Shown one piece after another: positions 9,680-24,473 of a stretch of DNA of 47,794 bases (the first letter of the stretch is position 1; each line of letters starts with the position of its first letter). Under the pieces are notes generated by a model that was not told where the DNA came from, searched no databases, and was given only the letters and a program-made list of their open reading frames with translations. The position numbers and the translations under genes are program-made. Source of the DNA: a virus; IMG/VR virus record IMGVR_UViG_3300027973_001855, positions 1-47,794 of that record. The stretch is one strand, 5' to 3'.

Positions 9680-9685
9680 GATGGT

Positions 9686-9853
9686 ATGAAATTTCCTGAA
9701 ACTAGAAATCCTGGATTAAACACCACTGGTGTGTTGGGTATCACATTGATGATATTGCATATCACAGGATATCTTATGGGATGGTGGTGGATGTTGATAT
9801 ACATACCTTTGATACTGTCAGGCATGGGACAAGAATTTTTAAAAAGGAACTAA
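9686..9853 (+). CDS. small membrane protein
   Basis: This 55-residue frame begins M-K-F-P-E-T-R-N-P-G and contains two hydrophobic stretches: G-V-L-G-I-T-L-M-I-L about residues 15-31, and a W-W-W-M-L-I-Y-I-P-L segment about 33-45. They form one long or two short membrane segments, ending in a basic tail K-R-N. Its stop overlaps the gp44 start (TAATG), indicating translational coupling. It sits directly at a sigma70-type promoter. The function is unknown; small membrane proteins beside replication genes are common in T4-like phages. Confidence 0.65.
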   Translation: MKFPETRNPGLNTTGVLGITLMILHITGYLMGWWWMLIYIPLILSGMGQEFLKRN

Positions 9854-10770: not shown

Positions 10771-10771
10771 C

Positions 10772-11083: not shown

Positions 11084-11799
11084 TCTCCGTAAATATCCAA
11101 CACTTCTTTCACAGCAGGATGACGTTCAATGTCCCCTTTGTGAAAACTCACTATATCAATGCGTTGAGCTTTGTCTGTTTTATTTAATTTTTCTATAAAA
11201 TCCAACAATCCATTATCGTGCTGTCTGTCTGCTTGATTTAAATCACCTGTCACAGCCATTTTAGATCCTTGACTCAAACGTGTGAGCAACATCTTCATTT
11301 GACTGTGTGTGGTATTTTGACACTCATCTGCCACTATGAATGCTCTTACAAAATTCCTGCCTCGCATGAATGCCAAAGGTGCTATTTCAATCACGCCTTC
11401 ATACATCATACTTCTAAGATCTTCTGTGCGAAAGTATTCTTGAAACACATCAAATATAGGGCGTGTCCATGGTGCCATTTTTTCTTCCAGTGTGCCAGGT
11501 AAAAACCCAATGTCTTCATCCACACTCACTGCTGGTCTGGTGATGATGATGCGATCCACCTGTCTTTGTTTGAACATTTTGATGGCCACCTGAACTGCCA
11601 GCAATGTTTTGCCTGTGCCAGCAGGTCCCACACCGAATACAATGTCTTTGCTGGGGTCTAACAGTTTGATTAGGTAGGATTCTTGATTCTTATTGCGGGG
11701 TATTATTTGGACATCTTTTTGTTTTTCTATTTGATATTGATTAATTTTGAGTACATTATTGTGCTTGGATTGCTTTTTGAAAGCATTTTTTGAACCCAT
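11080..11799 (-). CDS. phoH: PhoH-like ATPase
   Basis: This 239-residue protein on the minus strand has Walker A G-P-A-G-T-G-K-T (58-65), the motif I-I-I-T-R-P-A-V (85-92), Walker B I-V-A-D-E-C-Q-N (155-162) and T-G-D-L-N-Q-A-D. Together these define PhoH. The ATG at 11797-11799 is chosen because an AAGGAG ribosome site lies 5 nt upstream; a longer frame would need a TTG. PhoH is widespread in marine phages; its role there (RNA metabolism or helicase-like, phosphate stress) is debated. It is the only minus-strand gene in the window and carries its own late-type octamer. Confidence 0.92.
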   Translation of the reverse strand: MGSKNAFKKQSKHNNVLKINQYQIEKQKDVQIIPRNKNQESYLIKLLDPSKDIVFGVGPAGTGKTLLAVQVAIKMFKQRQVDRIIITRPAVSVDEDIGFLPGTLEEKMAPWTRPIFDVFQEYFRTEDLRSMMYEGVIEIAPLAFMRGRNFVRAFIVADECQNTTHSQMKMLLTRLSQGSKMAVTGDLNQADRQHDNGLLDFIEKLNKTDKAQRIDIVSFHKGDIERHPAVKEVLDIYGD

Positions 11800-11830
11800 C
11801 GACGCTCCTTGGTTAATGGTAATGTACAAG

Positions 11831-11838
11831 TATTTATG
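11831..11838 (-). promoter_or_regulatory. T4-type late promoter (CATAAATA) for phoH
   Basis: Read on the minus strand, this octamer lies about 30 bp before the phoH ATG, with AAGGAG between. It is divergent from the next late promoter on the + strand. Confidence 0.6.
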
Positions 11839-11883
11839 GAGATTAAGTGTCTATAAAACTACCATGTTATACCTATTGCTATG

Positions 11884-11891
11884 GCTAAATA
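11884..11891 (+). promoter_or_regulatory. late promoter variant (GCTAAATA)
   Basis: This is a C variant of the late octamer, 20 bp upstream of the next ATG, with an AGGGA-like ribosome site. The same CTAAATA variant appears before other genes in the window, which supports it. Confidence 0.5.
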
Positions 11892-11911
11892 ATGTATATC
11901 AGGGATATAAT

Positions 11912-12421
11912 ATGCACGATACAGCAGATATTTTAAAAAATATAGAAAGCATCTACAGCAATGATAATGCTTTTGCTATTATTAAAGATTTTGAAAGAGT
12001 ACTGGACGAATTGGATCTATATGTGTATGCCAATTGGCAGGATGGTGAATTGATTGAAGGACCAATCATGACCAAACATTATGTGTCCTGCAAATTTATG
12101 TGGCCTATGCTGCAAATGCCAGACCCCATGGGCGGCAAAAGATTATTGGATTATGACTGCCGAGTAACTTATAAAAAAGATCAATTGGTCACTGCTAGAA
12201 AAATTGTGGAACCTGATGATGTGAGACCAGGCACTAAAAAAGGCAAGTTGGACACTGTGCCTGTGTGGATTGTGGAAATCACCATGCCAATTAATCTTAT
12301 GAAAAATATATTTGATGGCATGCAAAATCAAGTGGACTTTAATCAAGAGCCAACCAAGAACAATACCATTACTGATATTCAAGATACTGCTGCAGTTCAA
12401 CCCATAAATCCAGAAATATAA
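11912..12421 (+). CDS. conserved marine T4-like phage protein, function unknown
   Basis: This 169-residue protein has a helical N-terminus, then Y-V-Y-A-N-W and the motifs M-P-D-P-M-G-G-K-R (about 71-79) and V-R-P-G-T-K-K-G-K-L-D. Its last 30 residues are low in complexity. I recognise the family as conserved in marine T4-like phages but know no function. The start is the ATG after an AGGGA motif; longer in-frame extensions would run back through the divergent promoter region. It precedes another unknown and the lysis cassette on one probable late transcript. Confidence 0.6.
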   Translation: MHDTADILKNIESIYSNDNAFAIIKDFERVLDELDLYVYANWQDGELIEGPIMTKHYVSCKFMWPMLQMPDPMGGKRLLDYDCRVTYKKDQLVTARKIVEPDDVRPGTKKGKLDTVPVWIVEITMPINLMKNIFDGMQNQVDFNQEPTKNNTITDIQDTAAVQPINPEI

Positions 12422-12422
12422 T

Positions 12423-13133
12423 ATGTCACTCAAAACAGGAGATCTTCAATACTGCGTGGATGATATTTTTGAAGTGGATTCATATCAATCCAAAATGGGC
12501 ATGGATGACAAGATTGTGGTGTTGAGTTTCAGAGTCAAACCCACACAAGCAGCAGAAGATTTGGTAAACTTTATTGAAAAAGGTTACGACTTTGTGTTGG
12601 ATGCAGACAAAACCAGTGGTGAACAATCTGATGGTTACTACAGAGTATTTGTGGAGATTGAAAGAAGCAAAAAGATTGGTGCGCAAATTATGGAAGTACT
12701 GGATGGTGTAAAAAAATTATCAGATTTGAAAGAATTTAAATTTAGATACTACAAAAATTTTAGAAGTCAACCAGCAGATCAGGCCACACTGGAAAACATT
12801 GTGCCCAAGGATGGCAATGAGTACAGCATACGCAAAAATGAAACTGCAATGGAAAATTACAAAAACTTTTTTGCCAACAGCTATGTGGATGAAGTGATAA
12901 TGGAAGGCGATCACATTGTGTTCAGTAAAAAATATGCTGAGCCATTAAGATTTAGATTTGTGGATTTTGGTATCACAGTGGACAAACTGCAAGAGCTCAA
13001 AGAAGGTTATAATTTGAACAAATTTCCTGAAATACTCTATCTCAGCAAGTACATGGGAAATTACAACATAAGTATCTATGGCAACAAATACATATTTGAA
13101 AATGATAACAAATGTGTGATACTGGAAAAATAA
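12423..13133 (+). CDS. conserved phage protein, function unknown
   Basis: This 236-residue alpha/beta protein has no membrane segment or recognised catalytic motif. It begins M-S-L-K-T-G-D-L-Q-Y and has an aromatic-rich C-terminal half. It starts 1 nt after the previous gene and is followed 1 nt later by the endolysin gene, so it belongs to the same translationally coupled unit. A structural or virion role is likelier than lysis, but this is inference from position only. Confidence 0.55.
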   Translation: MSLKTGDLQYCVDDIFEVDSYQSKMGMDDKIVVLSFRVKPTQAAEDLVNFIEKGYDFVLDADKTSGEQSDGYYRVFVEIERSKKIGAQIMEVLDGVKKLSDLKEFKFRYYKNFRSQPADQATLENIVPKDGNEYSIRKNETAMENYKNFFANSYVDEVIMEGDHIVFSKKYAEPLRFRFVDFGITVDKLQELKEGYNLNKFPEILYLSKYMGNYNISIYGNKYIFENDNKCVILEK

Positions 13134-13134
13134 C

Positions 13135-13602
13135 ATGAATCTATCAGAAAATTTTACCGTGACAGAATTTACCAAAAGTCAAACAGCAGCTCGTCTGGGT
13201 ATAGACAACATGCCCACACCTGAGCATTTGGAAAATGCCAAAAGATTATTTGAAAATGTGGTACAGAGAGTGCGAGATCACTTTGGTGCCACCACTATTA
13301 ACTCTGGATACAGAGGCGCAGCACTGAACAAAGCAGTGGGCGGTGCATCCACCAGTCAACATTGCAACGGTGAAGCAGCTGATATAGAAGTGCCTGGAGT
13401 GGCCAACTATGATGTGGCACTATGGATTGAACAAAATTGTGAATATGATCAACTGATACTGGAAGCAGCCAAAAAAGATGATCCAGCAGCAGGTTGGGTG
13501 CATGTGAGCTACAAAGAAGGCAAGAATAGAAAACAAAGTCTCACAGCAGTGTTTGTGAATGGCAAACCCATCTACAGCAACGGATTAGGAGTGTACGAAT
13601 AA
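13135..13602 (+). CDS. endolysin, M15-type D,D/L,D-carboxypeptidase
   Basis: This 155-residue protein shows the peptidase M15_3 pattern: N-S-G-Y-R-G-A-A-L-N (56-65), then S-Q-H-C-N-G-E-A-A-D with zinc ligands His76 and Asp83, and W-V-H-V-S-Y with His123. The family cleaves peptide stems of peptidoglycan. There is no signal peptide, so release would need a holin. It is followed directly (TAATG overlap) by i-spanin and o-spanin genes, which fixes its role in lysis. Confidence 0.88.
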   Translation: MNLSENFTVTEFTKSQTAARLGIDNMPTPEHLENAKRLFENVVQRVRDHFGATTINSGYRGAALNKAVGGASTSQHCNGEAADIEVPGVANYDVALWIEQNCEYDQLILEAAKKDDPAAGWVHVSYKEGKNRKQSLTAVFVNGKPIYSNGLGVYE

Positions 13603-14087
13603 TGTTTGGATTGTTTGGATCAGCCAAATTAATCATGATAGGCATCATGGTGATAGGATTGTCTGGAGGAGTTAGTTATGTGTACAAACTCAAAGCGGAC
13701 AATGCCACACTCAAAGGCAATCAGGTCAAGATGGAACAGGCCTTGGAAACACAGACCAAGTTCATCGAAGATCAAAAGAGAGACTTTGAGGCTATTATGA
13801 AAGCCAATCAAGAAGTGAACAAATTGGTGGGCACACTGAAAAAAGACATCGATGATTTGGACAAAAGATTCAACAAAGGTACCAGAGACTTGGGCAAGAC
13901 AGCAATAGAAAGACCTGAAGCCATGGAAAGAATTATCAACAAAGCATCAGACAAAGCACTGAGATGTGTGGAGATCGCAGGTGGTGCCAAACTGACAGAA
14001 GCAGAAAAAACAGCCACTAAAAAATCAGAGATCAATTCCGAGTGTCCAGCCATAGCCAACCCGGCTTACAAGCCATACAACGAATAA
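13602..14087 (+). CDS. i-spanin-like inner-membrane lysis protein (Rz-like)
   Basis: This 161-residue protein has one N-terminal membrane segment (about residues 8-28). A long periplasmic coiled-coil region follows (about 30-95), rich in Lys, Glu, Gln and Asp, and then a C-terminal region with two Cys and a Pro/Tyr-rich end. This is the architecture of type II inner-membrane spanins. It starts within the endolysin stop (TAATG) and is followed by a lipoprotein gene. Together they should bridge and fuse inner and outer membranes. Sequence similarity to lambda Rz is not obvious; the call rests on topology and order. Confidence 0.72.
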   Translation: MFGLFGSAKLIMIGIMVIGLSGGVSYVYKLKADNATLKGNQVKMEQALETQTKFIEDQKRDFEAIMKANQEVNKLVGTLKKDIDDLDKRFNKGTRDLGKTAIERPEAMERIINKASDKALRCVEIAGGAKLTEAEKTATKKSEINSECPAIANPAYKPYNE

Positions 14088-14088
14088 T

Positions 14089-14451
14089 ATGATTAAAATA
14101 ATTTCCGTGATAGCTTTGAGTTTGTTGCTGACCAATTGCAGCATCCTTGGAGAAAAAGTGATCAAAGTGTTGACACAAGAACAGTCTCGTGAAAAATTAA
14201 ATTTCAAGACTCCCACACTGGAAGAGATGGAGAAGTTGAGATGGATAGTGATCACCAGCAACAATGCCACAGAAGTATTTGCCAAAATGAAAGCAGAAGG
14301 ATTGGATCCCGTGCTGTTTGGATTGAGTGATGAAGACTATGAGCTATTGGCTAAAAATTTTGCACAGATTCGCAGCACTCTAAAACAGACACAAGACATA
14401 CTGGAACGCTACAAAGAATACTATGAAGGAACAACTAAAACAAATAATTAA
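14089..14451 (+). CDS. o-spanin-like outer-membrane lipoprotein (Rz1-like)
   Basis: This 120-residue protein begins with a signal peptide (residues 1-16) and a lipobox-like L-T-N-C. Cys17 is the probable lipidation site; the -1 Asn is unusual. The mature part is charged and helical. The position right after an i-spanin-like gene supports o-spanin. It is larger than lambda Rz1 but within the range for separated spanin genes. The last residues overlap the next frame by 29 nt. Confidence 0.68.
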   Translation: MIKIISVIALSLLLTNCSILGEKVIKVLTQEQSREKLNFKTPTLEEMEKLRWIVITSNNATEVFAKMKAEGLDPVLFGLSDEDYELLAKNFAQIRSTLKQTQDILERYKEYYEGTTKTNN

Positions 14452-14797
14452 TTCCACAGTTGCCGTTGCCAAAAATGCATGGCCTTGTGTGAAGAATTTC
14501 AGTACACAAGCATACAGTCAATGCAAAATTTTATTTTGTGCAATTTACAAATATTCTGTAATAATCTTCAAAAATACGTGGTCTGGCATGATGTGGATCT
14601 ACAACATCATAGCAGACATGTTTCGCAAAGTGCCAGCAGAATTGACCTATTGGCATGATGGAGTACAGAATGTGGTGCAGGTGGATGATTTTGTGGAATT
14701 GGCTCCCAATATGATACAGTATGAAGACACAGACACCAAAAAAAGAGTCAAAGTAAAAGCCGAATATCCCATCAAATATATCTTGAAAGAAAAATAA
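14423..14797 (+). CDS. lysis-cassette-linked protein of unknown function, possibly membrane associated
   Basis: This 124-residue protein has an N-terminal half with amphipathic or hydrophobic stretches around residues 35-48 (I-L-F-C-A-I-Y) and 52-66 (W-S-G-M-M-W-I-Y-N-I-I), and a soluble C-terminal half. It overlaps the o-spanin gene, so it is tied to the lysis unit. A holin-like or membrane-modulating role is possible, but no clean transmembrane pair is seen and I would not call it a holin. Confidence 0.5.
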   Translation: MKEQLKQIINSTVAVAKNAWPCVKNFSTQAYSQCKILFCAIYKYSVIIFKNTWSGMMWIYNIIADMFRKVPAELTYWHDGVQNVVQVDDFVELAPNMIQYEDTDTKKRVKVKAEYPIKYILKEK

Positions 14798-14810
14798 ACC
14801 TTTCAATCAC

Positions 14811-14840
14811 TTGACTTTTTATCAAAATACACTATATTAT
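14811..14840 (+). promoter_or_regulatory. sigma70-type promoter (TTGACT...TATATT/TATTAT), leaderless configuration
   Basis: The -35 TTGACT is followed 16-18 bp later by overlapping -10 candidates TATATT and TATTAT. The predicted +1 lies at or within 1 nt of the ATG of the DnaJ-like gene. No SD is present. Confidence 0.7.
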
Positions 14841-14845
14841 AGCAT

Positions 14846-15682
14846 ATGGATCCATACAAAGTTTTAGGTGTTGATCGCAACATCAACGAAAACGATTTGA
14901 AAAAAGCCTACAAGAGCAAGGCCATGAAACATCATCCTGACAGAGGTGGTGATGAAAACAAATTTAAAGAACTAAACGAAGCCTACGACATACTGAAAGA
15001 TCCACAAAAAAAAGCTGCCTATGACAGATACGGCACTGCAGATCCCAATCAAATGAATTCACAAAATTTTAATTTTAATGGTGATATCAATGATGTGTTC
15101 AACACATTCTTTGGTGGTGGTTTCAATAGAGCAAACAGTGCGAGACACAGACCTCGCAACGCCGACATAAACATAGAAGCCACATTGGATTTAGTAGATG
15201 TGCAAAATGGAAAATCCTTAATTGCCAGTTATAGATTACCCAACGGTCGACAGGAGAGTGTGAACATTGACATTCCGCCAGGAGTGGAACACAACAACAT
15301 GATCAAATTTAATGGTTTGGGTTCTGATTCAGTGAGCAATGCTCCCAGAGGAGATTTGATTGTGAGAGTAAAAATTCTAAGACATAAAACATGGGAAAGA
15401 GATGGCCCTCATCTACTCACAAGAATAAAAGTCAATATATTGGATTTGATATTGGGCACAAAGGAAGAAATACACACACTGTCTGGCAAGAACCTTTCAA
15501 TCAGCATACCCAAAGGCACTCAGAACGGCACAGTGTTCAATGTCACAGGAGAAGGATTGCCCAATGTGCATAATCCTAGACAGAAAGGCAACATCTATGT
15601 CACAGTGCAGGCAGATACGCCACGAGTGGATGACGCAGAATTATTACAAAAAATAAAAAATTTAAAAGATGAACTTAATTAA
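14846..15682 (+). CDS. DnaJ/CbpA-like J-domain co-chaperone
   Basis: This 278-residue type B J-protein has its J domain at residues 1-65, with the invariant H-P-D at 30-32 and the helix IV region Y-D-R-Y-G. A Gly/Phe/Asn-rich linker follows (about 70-98), then a two-part C-terminal substrate-binding domain containing P-x-G-V-x-x-x-x-x-I-K-F. The cysteine zinc-finger repeats of DnaJ are absent, so it resembles CbpA. It should stimulate host DnaK. It heads an operon with deformylase and a Clp ATPase, and overlaps the deformylase start by 14 nt. Confidence 0.93.
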   Translation: MDPYKVLGVDRNINENDLKKAYKSKAMKHHPDRGGDENKFKELNEAYDILKDPQKKAAYDRYGTADPNQMNSQNFNFNGDINDVFNTFFGGGFNRANSARHRPRNADINIEATLDLVDVQNGKSLIASYRLPNGRQESVNIDIPPGVEHNNMIKFNGLGSDSVSNAPRGDLIVRVKILRHKTWERDGPHLLTRIKVNILDLILGTKEEIHTLSGKNLSISIPKGTQNGTVFNVTGEGLPNVHNPRQKGNIYVTVQADTPRVDDAELLQKIKNLKDELN

Positions 15683-16163
15683 ATATCCTGATCAGAGACT
15701 GCAACAGACTGTAAAAGATTTTGATTTCAATTCTTTGGATGCTAAAAAAATAGAGCATGAGATGATTCAAACCATGCAAACAGAAATGGGCATTGGTCTG
15801 TCTGCCAATCAGGTTGGATTGGATGCCAAAATATTTGTGATGCAACCACACAGTGTGCTTGGAAAAACCCAACCATTTGCAGTGATAAATCCTGTGATAC
15901 AGGAAGCTTCCACAGATTTGGTTCTGATGGAAGAAGGCTGTTTGAGCTTTCCAAAATTATATCTTAAAATACTCAGACCAAACACCATAGTGGTTAAATA
16001 TATTGACAGTGATCAAAAAGAATGTATAATAAAATTAGATAGAATAAATGCTAGAATTTTTTTACATGAATTTGATCATTTGTACGGTATCAACTTTATC
16101 GACAGAGTCAGCAAGTTAAAATTAGATATGGCCCTTAAGAAACAACAGAGATTGCTAAAATAA
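15669..16163 (+). CDS. def: peptide deformylase
   Basis: This 164-residue protein contains all three PDF motifs: G-I-G-L-S-A-N-Q (41-48), E-G-C-L-S (89-93) and H-E-F-D-H (133-137). The metal ligands are Cys91, His133 and His137, and the catalytic Glu is Glu134. It removes the formyl group from nascent Met. Phage-borne deformylases are known from marine phages. The start overlaps the DnaJ-like gene, and the Clp gene follows 1 nt later, so all three are coupled. Confidence 0.95.
   Translation: MNLIKYPDQRLQQTVKDFDFNSLDAKKIEHEMIQTMQTEMGIGLSANQVGLDAKIFVMQPHSVLGKTQPFAVINPVIQEASTDLVLMEEGCLSFPKLYLKILRPNTIVVKYIDSDQKECIIKLDRINARIFLHEFDHLYGINFIDRVSKLKLDMALKKQQRLLK
16003..16030 (+). promoter_or_regulatory. 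possible internal promoter (TTGACA-16-TATAAT) inside def
   Basis: Both hexamers match the sigma70 consensus exactly, separated by 16 bp, within coding sequence 135 bp before the Clp ATPase gene. It could give extra clp transcription, or it may be a coincidence of codons. Confidence 0.35.
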
Positions 16164-16164
16164 T

Positions 16165-18423
16165 ATGGTAGAACCCAGCGACGAACTACAACGCATATTT
16201 GACAAAGCAGTAGAAAATGCTGCCAAACTCAAACATGAATACATCACAGTGGAACATCTGTTGTTCTCCATGCTGTGCTATGATAAATTTGTGAAAAATT
16301 TGTCTGACTTTGGCGCAGATGCTGAATCAATCAAAAAAAATCTTGAAAAATATCTTAAGGACAATCTAAAAGAGATTGAACTGTTGGAAGTGCCTGCAAA
16401 ATTCAAACCCAAAAAGACTGTGGCTGTGGAGCGAGTACTCAACAGAGCATTCACACAGGTGTTGTTCAGTGGTCGTCAACAGATTGAACTGACTGATGTG
16501 TTTTTGAGCATGATGAGTGAAAAGAAGAGCTGGAGTTATTATTACATTGCCAAAAGCAACATCAGCAAAGACAAATTTGCTGATTTTTTAAACAGTGAAT
16601 TAGAAACTGATTATGAAGCAGAAGAAAACAGTTCTGCCACTCAAAGAGCATTGAATCTATACACCACAAATTTGAATTCGGAAGCAAAAAAAGAAAAAAT
16701 AGATCCCGTGATAGGTCGACATGCTGAGTTGGATCAAATTTCATTGGCTTTGGGTCGTAGAATGAAAAACAATGTGATATTAGTGGGTGATCCAGGAGTG
16801 GGTAAAACTGCCATAGCAGAAGGATTGGCATTGAACATTGTGACCAATAAGGTTCCAGACTTTTTAAAAGAGTATCAGGTGTATAATTTAGACATTGGTG
16901 CCATGTTGGCTGGTAGCAAATACAGAGGAGACTTTGAAGAAAGATTCAAAATGGTGTTGCAAGCACTAAAGAAAAAAGGCAAAACCATTGTGTTCATAGA
17001 CGAAGCACACAATATCAGCGGAGCAGGAGCAGGTGGTGGAGACAAAGGATCCAATGATTTAGCAAATTTATTAAAACCAGTGCTGACCAAAGGCACACTA
17101 AAAGTTGTGGCCAGTACCACTTGGGAAGAATACAGAAAATACTTTGAAAAAGATCGTGCTCTTATGAGAAGATTCCAAAGAATCACTGTGGATGAGCCCA
17201 GTCAATCAGTGGCCATAGACATATTGAAAGGTCTTAAAAAATATTATGAAAATTATCACAAAGCTGAAATCACAGATGCAGCCATTGAAGCAGCAGTAAA
17301 ATTAAGTTGCAAATATCAAACTGATAAGAAATTACCTGACAAGGCCATTGATTTAATAGATCTATCTGGCAGTAGATTCAATATCAGTCCCAAAGAAAAT
17401 CGTAAGATTGATGTGGCTGAAGTAGAATTTGAATTAAGTAAACTGATCACCATGCCTGTGGAAAACATTCAACAGAGAGAGAACAGCAACTTGGTACATC
17501 TTGAAAAAAATTTAAAATCTGAAGTGTACGATCAGGATGAAGCTATTGACAATATTGTGGACAAAGTGTTCATTGCTCAAGCAGGATTGAAAGCAGAAAA
17601 TAAACCCATAGGTTCATTTATATTCATGGGACCAACTGGATGTGGTAAAACAGAGACAGCCAAGCAACTCAGCAAACATTTGGGAGTAAAATTGATAAGA
17701 TTTGACATGAGTGAATATCAAGAAAAACACAGTATCAGCAAACTGATTGGATCCCCTCCAGGTTATGTGGGCTATGAAGAAAATGCTGGATCATTGATTA
17801 CAAAATTACAAGAATCACCCAACTGTGTGTTACTGTTGGATGAAATAGAAAAAGCACATCCTGATATTTCACAAATATTGCTTCAGATTATGGATGAAGG
17901 CACAGTGACTGGCAGCAACGGCAAAGTGGCTGACTGCAGGAACATTATGTTGATATTAACCACCAATCTTGGTGCTGAACAGGCAGAAAAAGGCAGTATA
18001 GGTTTTGCTCAGTACATGGATGAAGCATATTCTGACACAGCATTAAAAAAATTCTTCACGCCTGAATTTAGAAACAGATTGGATGCTGTGGTCACATTCA
18101 AAAAATTAGGCAAACCTACTATGATCAAAATTGTGGGCAAATTCTTGACCGAATTAAAAAAATTCTTAACTGAAAAAAATATTCAAGTAACAGTGTCTGA
18201 TGAAGCCATTGATTATCTTGTGGACAAAGGATTTGATCCTAAAATGGGTGCTAGACCCATGCAGAGAACCATTGACAGAGAAATTAAAAAACCATTGTCA
18301 AGAGAACTGCTGTTTGGTGCTTTAAAAAAGGGTGGAAAACTTGTGATCAATGCCAAAGACAATAAAATAGTATTAGAAGTGTCGAATTCGTCGCAGACCA
18401 TAGAAATCGCCACAAACATCTAA
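16165..18423 (+). CDS. ClpA-like AAA+ unfoldase
   Basis: This 752-residue protein matches ClpA in length (758) and order. A Clp N-domain (1-145) is followed by the first AAA+ module, with Walker A G-D-P-G-V-G-K-T (208-215) and Walker B V-F-I-D-E-A-H. The second module has Walker A G-P-T-G-C-G-K-T (489-496) and [10 protein letters not shown]. There is no ClpB middle coiled coil. A tripeptide I-G-F lies at 612-614, where ClpA carries its ClpP-docking loop (I-G-L), so it may engage host ClpP. It closes the dnaJ-def-clp operon. It could redirect host proteolysis or remodel phage complexes. Confidence 0.9.
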
Positions 18424-18435
18424 CAGCATACAAGG

Positions 18436-18443
18436 ACTAAATA
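18436..18443 (+). promoter_or_regulatory. late promoter variant (ACTAAATA), leaderless configuration
   Basis: The octamer ends 6 bp before the ATG, so +1 would be the start codon A. The nearest purine-rich AAGGA is too far upstream and would lie outside the transcript. Confidence 0.6.
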
Positions 18444-18448
18444 TACGT

Positions 18449-18811
18449 ATGCCAGCATACAGCGAAACAATATTAACAGCACAAAACCATCCCAATGACA
18501 GCACATCCACCACTGTCACAGGAGAGCAATACAAAGGCGACGGATACTATGGTCGCAGTGATGGATTTCACACAGTGCAATTGACTGTGACTGATTTTGT
18601 GGGTACCATAGTGATACAAGCCTCATTGGCCACTGAACCCACTGCCACAGATTGGTTTGATGTCACAGGCACTGCACACACCAGCACCAACAATGCTCAT
18701 GCAAATGCTGATGGTAGTTTTTTTTATAATTTTACCGGTAATTTTGTGTGGATCAGAGCCAAAGTGGTGTACACAGCAGGCGATATAGCATCAATCAAAC
18801 TGAATCACTAA
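18449..18811 (+). CDS. small virion structural protein (conserved in marine T4-like phages)
   Basis: This 120-residue beta-rich protein has the pattern G-D-G-Y-Y-G-R-S-D-G-F-H-T-V-Q (about 30-44) and a V-W-I-R-A-K-V strand near the end, followed by the terminal I-K-L-N-H. I recognise this type as a small structural protein of cyanophage-like genomes. There are no catalytic motifs. It opens the region of small head-linked genes under a late promoter. Confidence 0.6.
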   Translation: MPAYSETILTAQNHPNDSTSTTVTGEQYKGDGYYGRSDGFHTVQLTVTDFVGTIVIQASLATEPTATDWFDVTGTAHTSTNNAHANADGSFFYNFTGNFVWIRAKVVYTAGDIASIKLNH

Positions 18812-18812
18812 T

Positions 18813-19400
18813 ATGCAACATTTTTTCAGCATCATAGGCAAAGACATCAATCCAGAATCATTGTTGAACACAGCAATGAGCGAGAGCGCTATTGGATTGT
18901 TGGAAGACCAAACCACATATGAGATTTTTGAGGATGAAGATGACAATCAAGTATTGCGAGTGGAACTGCACAGATCATTGGATTCGACTGAGGCAGATGA
19001 ATTGGCAGAAAGTTTAAACGAAAAACTGAAAGCCATGGGATTGAATGAATTTGATATTGAAATCAGCACTGACGAAACATTGGATGAAGAAACACTGGAA
19101 GGTGAAGATTTTCATTCAGCCTATGATGTGATGTGGTTCAATGAAGATGAAAATTTAGATGAAGCAGAATACAGAGGACGCAAAGTGCCTTTGGGTAAAC
19201 CCATGCAGGGAGACGTAAAAAAGTTTAAAGTGTATGTGAAAAAACCCAACGGCAATGTGGTCAAAGTGAACTTTGGTGATCCCAACATGAGAATTAGAAA
19301 ATCCAACCCAGCAAGACGTAGAAGTTTTAGAGCAAGACACAACTGTGCTAACCCAGGTCCAAGAACAAAGGCCCGTTATTGGAGTTGTCGCAAATGGTAA
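18813..19400 (+). CDS. conserved phage protein with basic Cys-containing C-terminal domain (DUF6321-like)
   Basis: This 195-residue protein has an acidic N-terminal half (residues 1-115) followed by a strongly basic conserved tail. The tail contains K-K-F-K-V-Y-V-K, then R-R-S-F-R-A-R-H-N-C and A-R-Y-W-S-C-R-K-W at the end. I know this tail from marine phage structural or scaffold-associated proteins. The two Cys could bind metal or form a disulfide. The acid/base split suggests DNA or capsid contact. Function is unknown. Confidence 0.6.
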   Translation: MQHFFSIIGKDINPESLLNTAMSESAIGLLEDQTTYEIFEDEDDNQVLRVELHRSLDSTEADELAESLNEKLKAMGLNEFDIEISTDETLDEETLEGEDFHSAYDVMWFNEDENLDEAEYRGRKVPLGKPMQGDVKKFKVYVKKPNGNVVKVNFGDPNMRIRKSNPARRRSFRARHNCANPGPRTKARYWSCRKW

Positions 19401-19585
19401 AAATTACAGATTACAAAACTCATAAAAAAACTATCTCTAAGGAAGATCAAGAAGTATTCGATTGGATTGGACAGCAATTACAAGATGTTTATGATGGCAA
19501 GAATGTATATCTTTCAGATGAGTCAGTGGAGAAAGATAAACAAGCATGGTTAAAAACACAAATCACAACAGAGGAGATCAAATAA
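19394..19585 (+). CDS. small hypothetical protein
   Basis: This 63-residue charged, helical protein begins M-V-K-I-T-D-Y. The ATG overlaps the end of the previous gene by 7 nt; an upstream TTG in the same frame is less likely. No family is recognised. It lies in a run of closely packed small genes that are probably co-transcribed late. Confidence 0.5.
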   Translation: MVKITDYKTHKKTISKEDQEVFDWIGQQLQDVYDGKNVYLSDESVEKDKQAWLKTQITTEEIK

Positions 19586-19586
19586 C

Positions 19587-19862
19587 ATGTGGGAAATGAT
19601 TGAAAGAATGGTAGGAGATCGTCTGTGGATATACACAGGCATAATGGGTTCAATATTTGGTGCATTGTTTCTGACCTATATCAAAGACACTCGCATTGGC
19701 TTATGGGTGTACAGCAAGTGGGACGGAGCCATTGATTTCTTGCGTGATAGATATGGTTGGACTTGGTTAAATCAAGATCCAGATGCTTGGAAAAAATCAA
19801 ATCCTGGTGCGGCCAAAAAGATAGACGAATTAGAAGCAAGAATTAAAAGATTGGAAAAATAA
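19587..19862 (+). CDS. conserved small membrane protein
   Basis: This 91-residue protein has one membrane segment at about residues 16-32 (Y-T-G-I-M-G-S-I-F-G-A-L-F). A conserved I-G-L-W-V-Y and G-W-T-W-L follow, and a C-terminal coiled coil (about 72-91) ends in I-K-R-L-E-K. The family is common in marine T4-like phages with no known role. It starts 1 nt after the previous gene. Confidence 0.6.
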   Translation: MWEMIERMVGDRLWIYTGIMGSIFGALFLTYIKDTRIGLWVYSKWDGAIDFLRDRYGWTWLNQDPDAWKKSNPGAAKKIDELEARIKRLEK

Positions 19863-19864
19863 TC

Positions 19865-20191
19865 ATGGTCAAGATGAAAGATTTCACAGCAATTACCAGA
19901 GACAACATGGGATATGATGTGGTAGAGGACATATATCAATTCATGTTGAATGACAGTGTTTTTTTTAGGAAACATTTCTTTCCAGTGGCCAAACAAGTCA
20001 CAGACAATCATATGATTGAAAAAGATGTCAACATGTGGAGCAATTGTGTGGAAAATGCCATCCAAGAATATTTTAAAAAATTTAAAATCAAAGCCAAACC
20101 AGAAAAAATAATCAATGCAGATGATCGCGTGAATCTTGTGGGCAAGATTACCAAAGGGTTGGCACAACATCCGGTCAAGAATGCACAATGA
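19865..20191 (+). CDS. conserved phage protein, function unknown
   Basis: This 108-residue helical protein contains N-M-G-Y-D-V-V-E-D (about 14-22), F-M-L-N-D, and F-R-K-H-F-F-P. It is a conserved hypothetical of marine T4-like phages. The stop overlaps the next start (ATGA), so it is coupled to the nucleotidylyltransferase gene. Confidence 0.55.
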   Translation: MVKMKDFTAITRDNMGYDVVEDIYQFMLNDSVFFRKHFFPVAKQVTDNHMIEKDVNMWSNCVENAIQEYFKKFKIKAKPEKIINADDRVNLVGKITKGLAQHPVKNAQ

Positions 20192-20754
20192 GACTCATAG
20201 AAATAAGTCAGCCAGCGCCTAAAATTGCCGCATTTGCTTACGGCAGAATGAATCCACCCACCACAGGTCATAAAAAATTAGTGGATACCATTGCGTCTCA
20301 GCCAGGAGATCATTTTTTATTTTTAACACACACTCAAGATGCCAAAACAAATCCTTTGAGTTTTGAAGACAAAGTGCTGTATGCTCAAAAAATGTTCCCC
20401 ACAGTCACAGTGGGAGATGCAGGAGTTAAAACCATCATTGATGCCATGAAGAAATTACAAGGCATGGGCTACCGAGATATCATATATGTGGCAGGTTCAG
20501 ACAGAGTACAACAATTTGATCAATTGCTGAGCAAATACAATGGCAAAGATTATCAGTTTGACAGTATTAGAACTGTGAATGCTGGCATGAGAGATCCAGA
20601 TGCCGAAGGTGCTGCAGGTGTGAGTGCCAGCAAAGCCCGTGAATATGCTGTGCAAGGTGCTAGACGCAGCTTTTTAAGCACCATTCCCGCAGATGAAAAA
20701 ATTGGCAACGAGATATATCAAAAAATACGTCAAAACCTAAAGCAAACAGCATAA
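20188..20754 (+). CDS. nucleotidylyltransferase (cytidylyltransferase-like fold)
   Basis: This 188-residue protein carries the HxGH-type nucleotide-binding motif as G-R-M-N-P-P-T-T-G-H (19-28). A Rossmann-like core follows with Y-V-A-G-S-D-R, and then V-S-A-S-K-A-R-E (about 154-161), equivalent to the I-S-S-T/S motif of the superfamily. It should transfer a nucleotidyl group to a small phosphorylated substrate; the substrate is unknown (NMN, pantetheine phosphate or CDP-type). The N-terminus M-R-L-I-E-I-S resembles the tag shared by neighbouring proteins. It is embedded among head-linked genes, which is odd for a purely metabolic enzyme. Confidence 0.78.
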   Translation: MRLIEISQPAPKIAAFAYGRMNPPTTGHKKLVDTIASQPGDHFLFLTHTQDAKTNPLSFEDKVLYAQKMFPTVTVGDAGVKTIIDAMKKLQGMGYRDIIYVAGSDRVQQFDQLLSKYNGKDYQFDSIRTVNAGMRDPDAEGAAGVSASKAREYAVQGARRSFLSTIPADEKIGNEIYQKIRQNLKQTA

Positions 20755-20757
20755 ATA
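20750..20757 (+). promoter_or_regulatory. T4-type late promoter (CATAAATA), near-leaderless
   Basis: This octamer overlaps the stop region of the nucleotidylyltransferase gene and ends 5 bp before the next ATG. No SD is present. Confidence 0.65.
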
Positions 20758-20761
20758 TTGT

Positions 20762-20980
20762 ATGAACGAGATTGATAAATTAAAAAAACTGGCAGGCATA
20801 GACACTCTTTCACACACAATGCCATCAGTGGAAAATATCAGTCACACAGCACAGGCATTAAAAGACAAAGAAAAAAAATTAGGCTTGAAACCAGGTGATC
20901 CAGATTGGTTCAAACTGTGGTTCAGTCTGCCACACATGACTGGTTCAGTAGACAGTAAATTTAGAGGAAGAAAGAAATGA
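20762..20980 (+). CDS. small conserved phage protein
   Basis: This 72-residue protein has the conserved block P-G-D-P-D-W-F-K-L-W-F-S (about 44-55), then P-H-M-T-G. I recognise this aromatic block from marine T4-like phages. It starts M-N-E-I-D-K-L-K-K-L-A-G-I and ends in a basic R-G-R-K-K. The gene overlaps the next by ATGA. Function is unknown; the company suggests a head-associated protein. Confidence 0.6.
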   Translation: MNEIDKLKKLAGIDTLSHTMPSVENISHTAQALKDKEKKLGLKPGDPDWFKLWFSLPHMTGSVDSKFRGRKK

Positions 20981-21840
20981 AGCTAAGACACATCATCAAC
21001 GAAATGGGTTCTAGAATGCCATCATCTATGGTAAAAACTAAATCTAAACTGGACATGATGAATCCAGATGAGATTAGAGCGTTCTTTAAAAATAGAGAAG
21101 ATTTTGCAGCACAACACAGAGGCGGAAAGATAGCACCAGGATTTTCAGCCAAAGAATTAGCACAGAGACAGGAGTTCAGCTATGGCAGAGAATTTGCCAA
21201 AGGTCGTCCTTACTCTAAACATTTTGAAAGCACAGAATTAGACGAAGGTTTAAAAGATTGGTTACAAAAAATGGCTGTAGCTGGAATTATTGTGGGCAGT
21301 GTGGCAGGCATAGGTTCCATCAATAATGCCATCAATAATAATGTGCCAGTGATACAAGCCATGAACAAAGCATTAGATGTTGCTAATCAAAAAGGCGACA
21401 AACAATTGATACAGAACATAAAACAAGATATTGATGTGGCTAAAATAAGTTTGGATTCAGGCAAAGATTTGAATACTGTAAAGCAATTACAAGATAGATA
21501 TGCAAAATTTATGCCAGCTGATTATAAACCTTCTACTCCTAAGACAGTGGGCGAAGAAGTGGCTAAAACAGACACACTGACCATAGACATACCTATGTTT
21601 ATTAGATTGATGGAATATGCCAGAGAAGATGCCAAGACTGATATGGATCTACACAATGTTACCACAAATTTATTAAAGATCAAAGACAAAACTATCAGCA
21701 TGGCTGATTATGATCAAGTGGTTCAGTCCACAGATGTTGACACTGCTGACGAAAGTTTCAAAGATAAAATTGCTAAAAAAATTGTTCAACCCATAAAAGA
21801 TTACAACAAAGATAAAGAGCAAGAACCAAAAAAATCTTAA
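20977..21840 (+). CDS. head-region protein with N-terminal tag and membrane-like segment
   Basis: This 287-residue protein starts M-K-L-R-H-I-I-N-E, matching the shared tag and containing an I-x-E site. A hydrophobic Gly-rich segment lies at about 98-115 (A-V-A-G-I-I-V-G-S-V-A-G). Near residue 206 is a conserved motif I-D-I-P-M-F-I-R-L-M-E-Y-A-R-E-D, which I know from marine phage hypotheticals and which recurs next to M-A-D-Y-D. The tail is highly charged. The hydrophobic segment could interact with the host membrane on ejection. Confidence 0.6.
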   Translation: MKLRHIINEMGSRMPSSMVKTKSKLDMMNPDEIRAFFKNREDFAAQHRGGKIAPGFSAKELAQRQEFSYGREFAKGRPYSKHFESTELDEGLKDWLQKMAVAGIIVGSVAGIGSINNAINNNVPVIQAMNKALDVANQKGDKQLIQNIKQDIDVAKISLDSGKDLNTVKQLQDRYAKFMPADYKPSTPKTVGEEVAKTDTLTIDIPMFIRLMEYAREDAKTDMDLHNVTTNLLKIKDKTISMADYDQVVQSTDVDTADESFKDKIAKKIVQPIKDYNKDKEQEPKKS

Positions 21841-21844
21841 TCAT

Positions 21845-22006
21845 ATGATCAAAGAAAAACCATACTGTGTCAACTGCGGTGGGTCAACTCATTGTGGTAA
21901 AACTTTCAAAAGAAAAGAGAGCGAAACTGTCAATAACAAAGTCACACGTGAATGGACCATAGAAGTATGCCGCAATTGTTGTTGTTCAAAATGTGACAAA
22001 GAGTAA
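21845..22006 (+). CDS. small zinc-ribbon-like protein
   Basis: This 53-residue protein is rich in Cys: Cys8-x-x-Cys11 near the start, Cys17, and a C-terminal C-x-x-C-C-C-x-x-C cluster (residues 42-50). Two CxxC pairs suggest a zinc ribbon. It begins 4 nt after the previous stop, and its own stop overlaps an ATG (TAATG) that opens an in-frame extension of the nucleotidase gene. Function is unknown; DNA, RNA or protein binding is likely for such a fold. Confidence 0.6.
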   Translation: MIKEKPYCVNCGGSTHCGKTFKRKESETVNNKVTREWTIEVCRNCCCSKCDKE

Positions 22007-22042
22007 TGAAAATAGCCGAAATCACACATACCAAAATAACAC

Positions 22043-22071
22043 TTGATTTGCACAACGAAAAGTTGTATAAT
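22043..22071 (+). promoter_or_regulatory. sigma70-type promoter (TTGATT-17-TATAAT) upstream of nucleotidase
   Basis: The -10 is exact and the spacer is 17 bp. The predicted +1 lies about 3 nt before the ATG at 22081, so the mRNA would be nearly leaderless. The promoter lies inside an in-frame N-terminal extension. Confidence 0.72.
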
Positions 22072-22080
22072 AATACTTGC

Positions 22081-22725
22081 ATGACAGAACAAAATCAAGT
22101 GAGACCCACTGTGTATTTGGACATGGATGGTGTGATTGCTGACTTTTTTGGTGGAGTGGAGAAATTGTACGGTGTGGATCACTGGAAACAATTGACTTCT
22201 GACAAAACCAAAGATCTCAAACAAGAAGTGATAGACAGAATAGCCGGCACAGATTTCTTTGCTAATCTGCCTAAATTTCCCACAACTGACACACTGATTG
22301 AAATGATTAAAAAATTCACTGGTGGAAAATACAGCATACTAACATCTCCATTGAGAGGTGACACTGAAAACAGTGGATATTACAAAAAGATTTGGATAGG
22401 TAAAAACATAGTCAAGCCTGATGAGATTATTGTTACAGGCAGCAAAGAAGGTTGGGCCACAAAGAATGGTGTGAGCAACATATTGATTGACGATAGACCT
22501 ATCAATATTGAAAAGTGGCGTGCCAAAGGTGGATATGGCATACTGTATCAAGCCAACAAAGATCCATTGAGCAAAGTCACACAAGCATTTGAAAATTATC
22601 ATAAAAAACAATTGGAACCTGTGGAAGATGCAGCAGGCGTGGGCATCATTACCAAACAAAATACCACTCGAGATGTCAAACCAGGTGAGATCCGCAGACA
22701 AGCAAAAAAATTAAAACTGGTTTAA
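22081..22725 (+). CDS. 5'(3')-deoxyribonucleotidase-like HAD phosphatase
   Basis: This 214-residue HAD protein begins V-Y-L-D-M-D-G-V-I-A-D-F (nucleophile Asp14 and general acid Asp16). It continues with I-L-T-S-P (motif II) and I-L-I-D-D-R-P-I-N (motif III acid pair), typical of the mitochondrial-type dNT family that dephosphorylates dNMPs. The last 30 residues, with I-I-T-K-Q-N-T-T, lie beyond the HAD core. Start choice: ATG 22081 sits right after a strong promoter. However, the frame stays open to an ATG at 22006 that overlaps the previous stop and would add 25 residues starting M-K-I-A-E-I-T, the neighbourhood tag. Both forms may be made. Confidence 0.8.
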   Translation: MTEQNQVRPTVYLDMDGVIADFFGGVEKLYGVDHWKQLTSDKTKDLKQEVIDRIAGTDFFANLPKFPTTDTLIEMIKKFTGGKYSILTSPLRGDTENSGYYKKIWIGKNIVKPDEIIVTGSKEGWATKNGVSNILIDDRPINIEKWRAKGGYGILYQANKDPLSKVTQAFENYHKKQLEPVEDAAGVGIITKQNTTRDVKPGEIRRQAKKLKLV

Positions 22726-22729
22726 TACC

Positions 22730-22933
22730 ATGAAGATTCGTGAAGTAACAGAAAATTTTGCAGATGGCAAAGGTCCAGGCAAACCAGGTGACAGCAAGCG
22801 AGCAGGCATACCCAAAGGTGCTACCATCACACAACTGAAGAAGATACGCAGTTCTAAAACAGCATCCGCACGCAAGAAACAACTGGCACACTGGCAGATA
22901 AACATGCGCCAAGGTCGCAAACGCAATAAATAA
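22730..22933 (+). CDS. small basic tagged phage protein
   Basis: This 67-residue, strongly basic protein begins M-K-I-R-E-V-T-E-N, the shared tag. It continues with the conserved P-G-D-S-K-R-A-G-I-P-K-G and R-K-K-Q-L-A-H-W-Q-x-N-M-R blocks that I know from many marine T4-like phages. The high Lys/Arg content suggests DNA binding, fitting a DNA-packaged internal protein. Cleavage after the tag Glu would leave a small basic peptide. Confidence 0.65.
   Translation: MKIREVTENFADGKGPGKPGDSKRAGIPKGATITQLKKIRSSKTASARKKQLAHWQINMRQGRKRNK
22925..22932 (+). promoter_or_regulatory. T4-type late promoter (AATAAATA)
   Basis: The octamer overlaps the end of the small basic gene and ends 9 bp before the next ATG, leaving a leader of about 3 nt with no SD. 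Confidence 0.5.
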
Positions 22934-22940
22934 TAGTGCT

Positions 22941-23120
22941 ATGAAAATCAACGAAATTTTTAATTGTTCACTGTGTGGTAATCCCAGTTATCTAACACTG
23001 TCTGAATCTGAAAAACAAAAAGGTGTGGACGGCAAAGTGTGTTGGAAAGGCTACAAACGCATGGGCACCAAAATGAAAGGTGGCAAACGTGTGGATAATT
23101 GTGTGCCATCAGGCAAATAG
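22941..23120 (+). CDS. small Cys-containing tagged phage protein
   Basis: This 59-residue protein begins M-K-I-N-E-I-F. It has Cys9-x-x-Cys12, then C-W-K-G-Y-K-R-M-G with K-G-G-K-R-V-x-N-C-V-P near the C-terminus. The latter is a motif I recognise as a recurrent C-terminal module in marine phage proteins. Four Cys could bind zinc. The stop is followed immediately by the next ATG. Confidence 0.62.
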   Translation: MKINEIFNCSLCGNPSYLTLSESEKQKGVDGKVCWKGYKRMGTKMKGGKRVDNCVPSGK

Positions 23121-23312
23121 ATGAAAATCAAAGAAATTACCGAATCCCGAGCAGATTATCATTACGGCATTGATCCAGCACAGTTGAGCTACACATTCAA
23201 AGTGGGCGATATATACGGCCCAAAAAATCTCAAAGTGCCACACGCAAGGCTTTACAAAGGTGGCAAAGCAGTGAAAAAGCTGGGCATCACTGTGCCCAAA
23301 GTTCACAAATAA
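23121..23312 (+). CDS. small tagged phage protein
   Basis: This 63-residue protein begins M-K-I-K-E-I-T-E-S-R, a full tag with an I-T-E site. The rest is basic (Y-K-G-G-K-A-V-K-K-L) with no known domain. It directly abuts the preceding gene. Inferred internal head protein; no other evidence. Confidence 0.6.
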   Translation: MKIKEITESRADYHYGIDPAQLSYTFKVGDIYGPKNLKVPHARLYKGGKAVKKLGITVPKVHK

Positions 23313-23324
23313 TCCCAAACACCA

Positions 23325-23332
23325 CATAAATA
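23325..23332 (+). promoter_or_regulatory. T4-type late promoter (CATAAATA)
   Basis: This octamer lies 18 bp before the next ATG. The short leader lacks a clear SD. Confidence 0.62.
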
Positions 23333-23350
23333 CAGCATAGGCGAAACACA

Positions 23351-23551
23351 ATGAAAATAAGAGACATCATAAGAGAAGTGGCTTCTGTGGGATCCACATC
23401 TGCGGGCAATATTGCCAGCATAGCCAATCCACAAGTGACCAATCCTTATGCTTACAAAAGTGCCAAAGCCAAACCCAAAAAACAAAAACCCACTGATAAT
23501 GCACTGGACATGAAAAACGTCAGCATATTCGGCGGCCCATTAAAAAGATAA
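23351..23551 (+). CDS. small tagged phage protein
   Basis: This 66-residue protein begins M-K-I-R-D-I-I-R-E-V-A-S, with an I-R-E site. It then has G-S-T-S-A-G-N-I-A-S-I, a block familiar from marine phage hypotheticals. A basic Pro/Lys-rich linker follows, and the C-terminal block M-K-N-V-S-I-F-G-G-P-L-K-R. Its stop region carries the late promoter of the next gene. Confidence 0.62.
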   Translation: MKIRDIIREVASVGSTSAGNIASIANPQVTNPYAYKSAKAKPKKQKPTDNALDMKNVSIFGGPLKR

Positions 23552-23554
23552 ATA
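23547..23554 (+). promoter_or_regulatory. T4-type late promoter (GATAAATA), leaderless configuration
   Basis: The octamer overlaps the previous stop codon and ends 6 bp before the next ATG. No SD is present. Confidence 0.68.
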
Positions 23555-23559
23555 CTCAT

Positions 23560-23937
23560 ATGAAATACAAACAGATCAAAGAAGGTTTAGGAGATGCAGC
23601 TCACAAAGCAGAGTTGGATCACGAAGTTCAAATGGCTCGTGCTGACTTATACAAGTTGGCCAAATACAGCATCAAACTGCATGAGTTATTAAAGAACGTT
23701 TCAGAAGCAGAAGGTCTGGAAGGTTGGGTTCAAGCCAAGATCACTAAAGCATCTGATTACATCAGTTCTGTGTATCATTACATGGATTATGATGAAAAAT
23801 TTGATCAAGCTGAAATTGACAGCATACCTGTGCAAGACATTGTGAAACCATCCGATGGCAAAATGGAAACCTACGAAGAAATCCTTTTCAAAATCTTAGA
23901 TAAAAAAGTCACAGAGAAGAAAAATAACAAAAAATAA
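23560..23937 (+). CDS. conserved helical tagged phage protein
   Basis: This 125-residue, mostly helical protein starts M-K-Y-K-Q-I-K-E-G, with an I-K-E site. It contains D-H-E-V-Q-M-A-R-A-D-L-Y (about 20-31) and G-L-E-G-W-V-Q-A-K-I-T, blocks I know from nearly all cyanophage-type genomes. The tail is Lys-rich. Likely virion associated; function unknown. Confidence 0.65.
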   Translation: MKYKQIKEGLGDAAHKAELDHEVQMARADLYKLAKYSIKLHELLKNVSEAEGLEGWVQAKITKASDYISSVYHYMDYDEKFDQAEIDSIPVQDIVKPSDGKMETYEEILFKILDKKVTEKKNNKK

Positions 23938-23954
23938 AAAATTGGAGTGCTGGA

Positions 23955-24473
23955 ATGAAAATTAATGAAATAGTTTCAGAAGCACCGTTTGTCAAAGCAT
24001 TAAAAAGTTTCCCTGCTCAAGCAACCAAAGCCATAAAAAATTTCCCCAATCAAATAAAGCAAGGCGCTAAAGACGTTAAACAAACAGTAAAAAACTTTCC
24101 AGGAAGTGTTCAAAATTATTTGTCAAAAGACGACAATATGTCTAAAATAGCCACTGATATTTCCACCATAGGTGGTGGCCCAGGTCTTAAAGACTATGGA
24201 GCTGGTGACAAATCATCAGATGCACAATTTCAGGATCTGTTAAATGTGCTACAGGATAAATCCTTGAGCAAAAAAATTGACAAGCAAAAAATTACCACAG
24301 CAATGACAAACATGTATCAATCAGATAAACAACTTCCCACTGATAGACAGTATTTTATAAATGCAATCAAGCATTTATCCGCAACACATCCAGCGATCAC
24401 GCCTGACAAAATACACAGCGAGTATAAACCAATATTCAAAAGATATCAAATCAATCCTAACGAAATAAAATAA
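23955..24473 (+). CDS. tagged phage protein, possible internal head protein
   Basis: This 172-residue protein begins M-K-I-N-E-I-V-S-E-A-P. The next 60 residues form a basic amphipathic segment with repeated K-N-F-P and K-S-F-P turns (at about residues 18, 29 and 47). The C-terminal 100 residues look globular and helical. A GGAGT ribosome site precedes it. The basic repeats suggest DNA or membrane contact. Confidence 0.6.
   Translation: MKINEIVSEAPFVKALKSFPAQATKAIKNFPNQIKQGAKDVKQTVKNFPGSVQNYLSKDDNMSKIATDISTIGGGPGLKDYGAGDKSSDAQFQDLLNVLQDKSLSKKIDKQKITTAMTNMYQSDKQLPTDRQYFINAIKHLSATHPAITPDKIHSEYKPIFKRYQINPNEIK

Follow-up and report, generated by a model that had tools for sequence, protein, structure and literature searches.

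A block of adjacent genes in an uncultured phage genome shares an N-terminal tag resembling T4-type capsid-targeting propeptides

The window analyzed here is the whole 47,794-nucleotide stretch of IMG/VR record IMGVR_UViG_3300027973_001855, a 47.8-kb piece of an uncultured virus genome. It carries, flanked by ClpA-like and IMPDH-like genes, a block of nine plus-strand open reading frames (ORFs), starting at 20188, 20977, 22006, 22730, 22941, 23121, 23351, 23560 and 23955, whose products share a short N-terminal tag. This tag is very probably a capsid-targeting signal which, where it ends in Glu, would be processed by a gp21-type protease, and we hold it probable, with somewhat less confidence, that at least some of the tagged cargo is injected into the host. 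We predict packaging and processing because of (i) the T4-like spacing of the tag residues, (ii) the resemblance of a tag end to a capsid processing site, (iii) the presence of gp21 and gp23 on a syntenic contig, (iv) late-type promoters and (v) the occurrence of tagged transferase homologues in cyanophage virions.

The family-B DNA polymerase of the window is 41–49% identical to those of Phosso, Atu_ph07, Vibrio 2.275.O and RaK2. Judged by this gene, the nearest cultured relatives of the virus are the RaK2-like jumbo phages (the RaK2/CBB/Atu_ph07/Phosso group), and the virus is not close to T4. A megablast search with 12 kb of the window against cultured phages gave no match. A tblastn search likewise yielded nothing.

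A shared N-terminus that ends at residue nine

The tag was evaluated on a hand-picked set of 72 window genes, 11 in the cluster and 61 outside it, using the pattern M-[KR]-Φ-x-x-Φ, where Φ is hydrophobic. The pattern is present in 9/11 cluster genes and in 1/61 of the others (Fisher p 6e-9), and it occurs at none of the 296 internal methionines of the window. As starts with MK or MR are common (18/72 genes), a bias in translation initiation or composition might have produced MK(I) starts by chance; the eight other MK/MR starts lie outside the pattern, which makes an A-rich or MK start bias fail as an explanation, and none of the 39 internal MK/MR dipeptides matches either. We regard this possibility as negligible.

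Residues 2–9 of the tagged proteins display a mean pairwise identity of 36%, compared to 7% for other genes and a maximum of 14% among 5000 random nine-gene sets. The likeness ends at residue 9, and the identity over residues 10–25 is 6% (5.5% in the others). The original prediction that eight or nine frames begin alike and that the proteins differ beyond the tag thus holds, and all the frames it named exist. It had also counted six tags with a residue-x-E end, five of them I-x-E and one with Val. The count of six stands, but the split does not: four tags end in I-x-E (INE, ITE, IRE, IKE) and two in V-x-E (VTE, VSE).

The tagged genes are adjacent and turn over among relatives, as would be expected if duplication or recombination had copied one start region, encoding a peptide without function, onto many genes. 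However, the 30 nucleotides 5′ of the tagged genes are no more alike than those elsewhere (29% and 32%, respectively) and identical tag residues are encoded by differing codons, which argues for a tag at the protein level and not for a copied DNA segment. Furthermore, orthologues with a diverged or longer tag retain the hydrophobic-x-E end. A copied start is therefore highly improbable. In the relatives of the cluster, which were gathered from two scans, the tagged block is retained by close relatives, yet genes inside it are swapped, and the substitutes are also tagged; tag candidates in multi-member families all lie on the coding strand.

Comparison of the tag with the T4 signal

Mutational analysis of the T4 signal has assigned targeting to residues 4 and 7 and processing to residues 8 and 10, and gp21 cleaves after L/I-x-E (PMC9026906). 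In T4, the recorded sequences of ipII and ipIII begin MKTYQEFIAE/A (a slash stands for the boundary behind the final Glu), that of ipI MKTFKEF...STITE/A and that of gp24 MAKINELLRE/S. The T4 spacing Φ-x-x-Φ-Φ-x-E, shifted one residue earlier, is reproduced exactly in the proteins starting at 20977 (MKLRHIINE), 23351 (MKIRDIIRE) and 23955 (MKINEIVSE), and three further tags have Glu at position 8. The targeting hydrophobics, at positions 3 and 6, are present in all nine. The proposed likeness to the T4 capsid-targeting sequence is thus borne out in spacing, but the tag is one residue shorter, belongs to a probably RaK2-like genome and, in its sequence, resembles the cleaved T4 gp24 N-terminus more than it does the internal proteins of T4. 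As Asp at position 10 blocks processing in T4 but leaves targeting intact (PMC9026906), the window tags that lack Glu could still target.

One tagged family resembles the capsid-protein processing junction

As the contigs nearest to the window carry no head genes, a RaK2-like gp23 was used to retrieve 80 loci. Their gp23 contains a conserved junction, L-x-E/[ST]ATAGATSAGN[IV]AT, at a site that is homologous to T4 FLTE/A by alignment and position. A hidden Markov model (HMM) of this junction, built from 57 distinct RaK2-like sequences and run against 1486 ORFs of the window's clade, matched only the family of the tagged 66-residue protein at 23351..23551 (+), MKIRDIIRE/VASVGSTSAGNIAS, with E values from 1.9e-8 to 1.8e-5 (1.7e-5 for the window copy), and the next, unrelated match had an E of about 3. 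Residues 4–23 of the 23351 protein resemble the processing junction of the major capsid protein: gp23 L-x-E/SATAGATSAGN aligns with the family's tag I-S-E/VASAGATSAGN (I-S-E/VASAGATSAGNIAT). The tag Glu, which falls on the presumed gp23 cleavage Glu, is kept in 23/23 members, and an orthologue with a longer tag retains the hydrophobic-x-E end (MKITEIISINLKE/VATAGATSAG).

Small junction-mimic proteins are also found in RaK2 (120706–120861), CBB (213937–214095), Vibrio 2.275.O (16459–16635) and contig G013, and cyanophage small proteins copy the differing junction of their own lineage, GFTGAAAPxGPxAGYDP (S-CREM2 gp160, E 5e-8; S-SCSM1 gp97, E 1e-7). Both of these cyanophage proteins are listed as detected virion proteins. 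The CBB mimic, CBB_293, has 52 residues and few tryptic peptides; the CBB virion list includes its neighbors CBB_292 and CBB_294 but lacks CBB_293 itself, an observation that we use neither way. No junction mimic was found in the parts of T4 that were searched. Small proteins that mimic the processed N-terminal arm of their own lineage's major capsid protein are seen in two or more groups of phages, and their sequences differ between the groups; the loci that encode such mimics include L299 (23343–24236) and L300 (43122–43307).

The 186-kb contig G013 carries syntenic homologues of the genes at 19865, 20188, 22730, 22941 and 23351 (at 9217–14452), with tags such as MKIREIFE/TATAGATSSANIAT and MRASEFITE/NFADGKK, as well as gp21 at 90036–90671 and gp23 at 91791–92960. 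A gp21 gene was found in 6/6 cultured relatives searched. A search for a gp21-type protease, proposed as a check of the original prediction, therefore has a divided outcome: the gene is absent from the fragmentary window and its nearest contigs, and present on a contig with a homologous cluster and in cultured relatives.

The tag might instead be a docking or localization motif for another compartment or partner, such as the membrane, a replication site or a host chaperone. A short amphipathic start could bind many partners, and three window tags have no cleavage site. Against this stand the match of the tag end and the following residues to the gp23 junction with its invariant Glu in the 23351 family, and the virion-protein enrichment and late-type promoters described below, all of which make a destination other than the prohead very unlikely.

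Tagged homologues in purified virions

The first gene of the block (20188..20754, +) encodes a cytidylyltransferase- or nicotinamide mononucleotide (NMN) adenylyltransferase-like enzyme in which the tag MRLIEISQ is followed by a nucleotidyltransferase domain (phrog_3041, E 2e-48, residues 8–186). Motifs TxGH and SxSKAR are seen by eye, the match to PF01467 is weak and under the cut-off, and the best cyanophage matches are 42–48% identical. Homologues in relatives of the window keep Glu-ended tags (MLITEILE/APSKTAVFAFGR, MRIVEVVE/A).

Analyses of purified virions have revealed homologues of this protein in S-SM1 (PMC3037559) and in S-CBWM1, S-SZBM1 and S-SCSM1 (PMC9602691, PMC10665884), and one is among the virion proteins of S-CREM2 (mass spectrometry of purified virions). 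Tagged homologues include those of S-CREM2 (MKNFSSFLTE/A), S-SCSM1 (MKSFLQFLKE/A), AG-345-L05 (MKSFLNFISE/S), ACG-2014f (MAMRSFLTFLTE/A) and Melnitz (MKKFSEIIE/A). The transferase copies of RaK2, CBB and Vibrio 2.275.O are untagged and begin straight at the domain, and CBB_73, the CBB copy, is not one of the 55 proteins identified in virions of that phage.

In S-CREM2, where two regions of the genome were taken in, the T4-spaced pattern is present in 5/15 detected non-structural or hypothetical virion proteins and in 4/131 undetected ones (p 6e-4, a value weakened by several of the N-termini having been seen before the pattern was fixed). The five are a S-adenosylmethionine (SAM) hydrolase, a kinase, the transferase and two unannotated proteins. 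S-CREM2 gp12 (L298, 7704–10313), a Cas9-annotated virion protein, has an internal tag-like sequence, LRFASFMAE/A, about 18 residues in.

Besides this weakening of the S-CREM2 statistic, several points count against packaging and processing. The window virus is known from its sequence alone, and the tagged examples detected by mass spectrometry belong to Kyanoviridae, not to the window's lineage; RaK2, CBB and Vibrio 2.275.O carry few such tags. There is no head gene in the window, and searches of the closest contigs, fragments without any head genes, with PF03420 and PF07068 gave no match. Furthermore, the window copies of 22941, 22006 and 20188 (3/9 tags) do not have a hydrophobic-x-E end, and two tags end in V-x-E, not L/I-x-E. 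Nonetheless, the predicted set of packaged and processed proteins is supported by the spacing, the gp23-junction match, the gp21 and gp23 genes of G013, the late-type promoters and the cyanophage virion homologues.

It is also conceivable, although unlikely, that the tag directs assembly factors to the prohead, where they associate with the scaffold; these proteins would be processed and act in head assembly but would not be injected. The 23351 protein and its relatives copy a capsid-protein junction, many tagged proteins are 40–70 residues long and have no enzymatic domain, and T4 IPIII influences head shape too (PMC9026906). However, the tagged set includes two metabolic enzymes, for which a part in assembly is not apparent, and homologues of the tagged transferase persist in mature virions.

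Late-type promoters and a putative promoter within a tag

ATAAATA is the core of T4 late promoters. The window has ten such sequences on the plus strand and one on the minus strand, and all ten lie within 32 nucleotides of a start codon: five in a block of tail-fiber-type genes, four in the tagged cluster and one elsewhere. Together, 9/19 genes of the tail-fiber block and the tagged cluster have the motif, compared to 1/52 of the rest (p 1e-5). Those of the cluster are at 20751..20757 (12 nucleotides 5′ of ORF 20762), 22926..22932 (5′ of 22941), 23326..23332 (5′ of 23351) and 23548..23554 (5′ of 23560), all on the plus strand.

The gene at 22006..22725 (+) encodes a 5′(3′)-deoxyribonucleotidase of the HAD/NT5C type (PF06941, E 7e-6; phrog_2643, E 9e-25), which begins MKIAEITH... 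and whose domain starts at about residue 30. Its tag region contains a putative σ70-type promoter, TTGATT-N17-TATAAT (22043–22071, in the segment 22043..22083, +), followed by an internal ATG (22081–22083, +) just ahead of the HAD domain, from which an untagged nucleotidase would start. The element is present in every distinct nucleotidase homologue listed, mostly as TTGACA-N17-TATAAT with the ATG mostly six nucleotides on (range 6–9). The LYN codons TTG TAT AAT are invariant in 17/17 distinct sequences, some of which are near-identical, so that these are not 17 independent tests, whereas codons of the domain vary synonymously. In the relatives, the nucleotidase begins MRILDLESN... or MRLSEISR.... 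Relative G001 has many other genes with an equally close spacing between TATAAT and ATG, and across the whole region σ70-like promoters are no commoner than in shuffled sequences, for which reason we single out just the conserved element of the nucleotidase.

This arrangement suggests that the nucleotidase gene may yield an untagged, leaderless product early and a tagged product late. We tentatively extend it to a model, possible but rather doubtful, in which cargo is expressed through two channels, with the nucleotidase made late in tagged form for injection and early in untagged form from the promoter in its tag, while in parallel the tagged mimic of the capsid N-terminal arm acts at the capsid lattice.

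Other genes of the block and tags elsewhere

Pfam and PHROG searches of the cluster proteins returned names only for 20188 and 22006, in addition to a small domain in 22941 and the weak match of 23351. The statement of the original prediction that the tagged set includes enzymes is therefore supported for the transferase-like protein and the nucleotidase.

The 287-residue protein at 20977..21840 (+), MKLRHIINE/M, has a hydrophobic stretch (AVAGIIVGSVAGIGSI) and begins MKLRDIISE or MKLRHIISE in relatives. The 67-residue protein at 22730..22933 (+), MKIREVTE/NFADGKGPGKPG, has a G013 homologue starting MRASEFITE/NFADGKKPGRKG. The 59-residue protein at 22941..23120 (+), MKINEIFN..., carries a C-terminal CWKGYKRxGxKxxxGKRVxNCV domain matched by phrog_4359 and others, and its counterparts have Glu-ended tags (MKVNEILE/GTRCWKGY in relatives, MKANEILTE/A in G013). 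The 63-residue protein at 23121..23312 (+), MKIKEITE/SRADYHYG, corresponds to MKIREIVE/SRADYHYG and MRYKDFKMVE/ARVDYHYG in relatives. The block ends with a 125-residue protein at 23560..23937 (+), MKYKQIKE/GLGDAAHKAEL, and a 172-residue protein at 23955..24473 (+), MKINEIVSE/APFVKALK, which reads MKINELVTPSLG, without Glu, in relatives. Two ORFs of the cluster are untagged: a cysteine-rich 53-residue ORF at 21845..22006 (+), MIKEKPY..., and a small ORF at 20762..20980 (+) that starts MNEIDKLKKLAGI. This start is kept in relatives (the G001 counterpart reads MNIDDLKRLAGI) and is perhaps a different N-terminal motif.

Relative G001 has a second tagged group at 115588–119951 (L101), with MKIRDITE/T, MKITEIVTE/S, MKAKEFIKE/F and MRLVEFKE. 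In the 374-kb contig G012, which has gp23 and an IMPDH-like gene, tags are dispersed and form no block like that of the window. The Methylophilales phage Melnitz (L110/L111) has a tagged block of its own at 12203–21701, with MQGFKTFLSE/A, MKKFSELTSELIE/R, MKKFSEIIE/A (the transferase), MKSIVEVTSINEEELPE/L (a HAD protein) and MKNFKNHIAE/E, and a kinase-like protein at 65855–66523 tagged MKTFAELQE/G. Small, probably related proteins of G013 (L277-L286, 135978–136565), Vibrio 2.275.O (233091–233681) and G012 (329231–329812) have tags close to that of T4 (MKTFKEYLAE/S, MKDLNTILTE/S, MKAFQSYIFE).

A model of cargo packaging

Combining these findings, we propose that the shared N-terminus serves as a capsid-targeting propeptide. 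The tagged proteins would be produced late in infection, attach to the prohead core through tag hydrophobics 3 and 6 and be enclosed as the gp23 shell is built. Besides trimming gp23 at L-x-E, the gp21 protease would cut behind the tag Glu where present (positions 8–10); the cargo would remain in the head until the next infection, when it would exit together with the DNA. Among this cargo would be the NMN/cytidylyltransferase-like enzyme and the deoxyribonucleotidase, and the 23351 protein would add a copy of the mature capsid-protein N-terminal arm. For this virus, the steps of binding, cleavage and injection are what we infer from the comparisons above, as are the roles of the enzymes on arrival; we speculate that the enzymes act on nicotinamide adenine dinucleotide or nucleotide pools, or counter a nucleotide-depleting defense.

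An NMN adenylyltransferase-like enzyme, kinases, a SAM hydrolase and small uncharacterized proteins are repeatedly detected by mass spectrometry in marine phage virions, and their route of entry is unexplained. A recognizable tag with a protease site offers such a route and allows injected proteins of uncultured phages to be predicted from sequence. At least ten internal proteins of T4-related phages have been identified via the signal, and all three of T4 inhibit GmrSD restriction (PMC12373910), which makes the tagged proteins candidates for defense or host-takeover factors of the first minutes. The principle is already known from T4. What seems new is the large enzyme-bearing block in an uncultured marine jumbo lineage, the shortened tag, the lineage-matched capsid-junction mimic carried by small proteins of the virion, and the promoter that lies inside a tag; the last two are observations separate from the tag itself, and each is testable. 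A literature search, with subscription journals and preprints mostly outside its reach, found no earlier description of this tag for marine phages or for RaK2-like ones.

Comparison with known systems

The RaK2-like phages (RaK2, CBB, Vibrio 2.275.O) are nearest to the window by polymerase, have gp21 and gp23 like those of G013 and carry capsid-junction mimics, but their copies of the transferase lack the tag, and other tags are scarce in them. The cyanophage T4-GC190 cytidylyltransferase/NMN adenylyltransferase-like virion protein belongs to the family of 20188–20754, has an N-terminal tag and is seen in purified virions. In most of these copies the linker is longer and the tag reads F-x-x-F[LI]-x-E, whereas the window's MRLIEISQ has no Glu and its relatives do (MLITEILE/A).

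Like the window proteins, T4 IPI, IPII and IPIII (with Alt) are otherwise unrelated proteins with a common short N-terminal propeptide, in which hydrophobics at i, i+3 and i+4 are followed by Glu at i+6 in a hydrophobic-x-E end, and Alt is a precedent for a packaged enzyme. The window tag differs in being one residue shorter (hydrophobics at 3, 6 and 7; Glu at 8–10), in having I instead of Y/F and, in three cases, in having no cleavage site; its nine genes form one block, which includes a nucleotidyltransferase and a nucleotidase, and the set is known from genes alone. Although T4 gp24 is a shell protein and the window proteins are no homologues of it as far as searched, its propeptide MAKINELLRE/S, a known gp21 substrate, differs little from MKINEIVSE and MKIRDIIRE.

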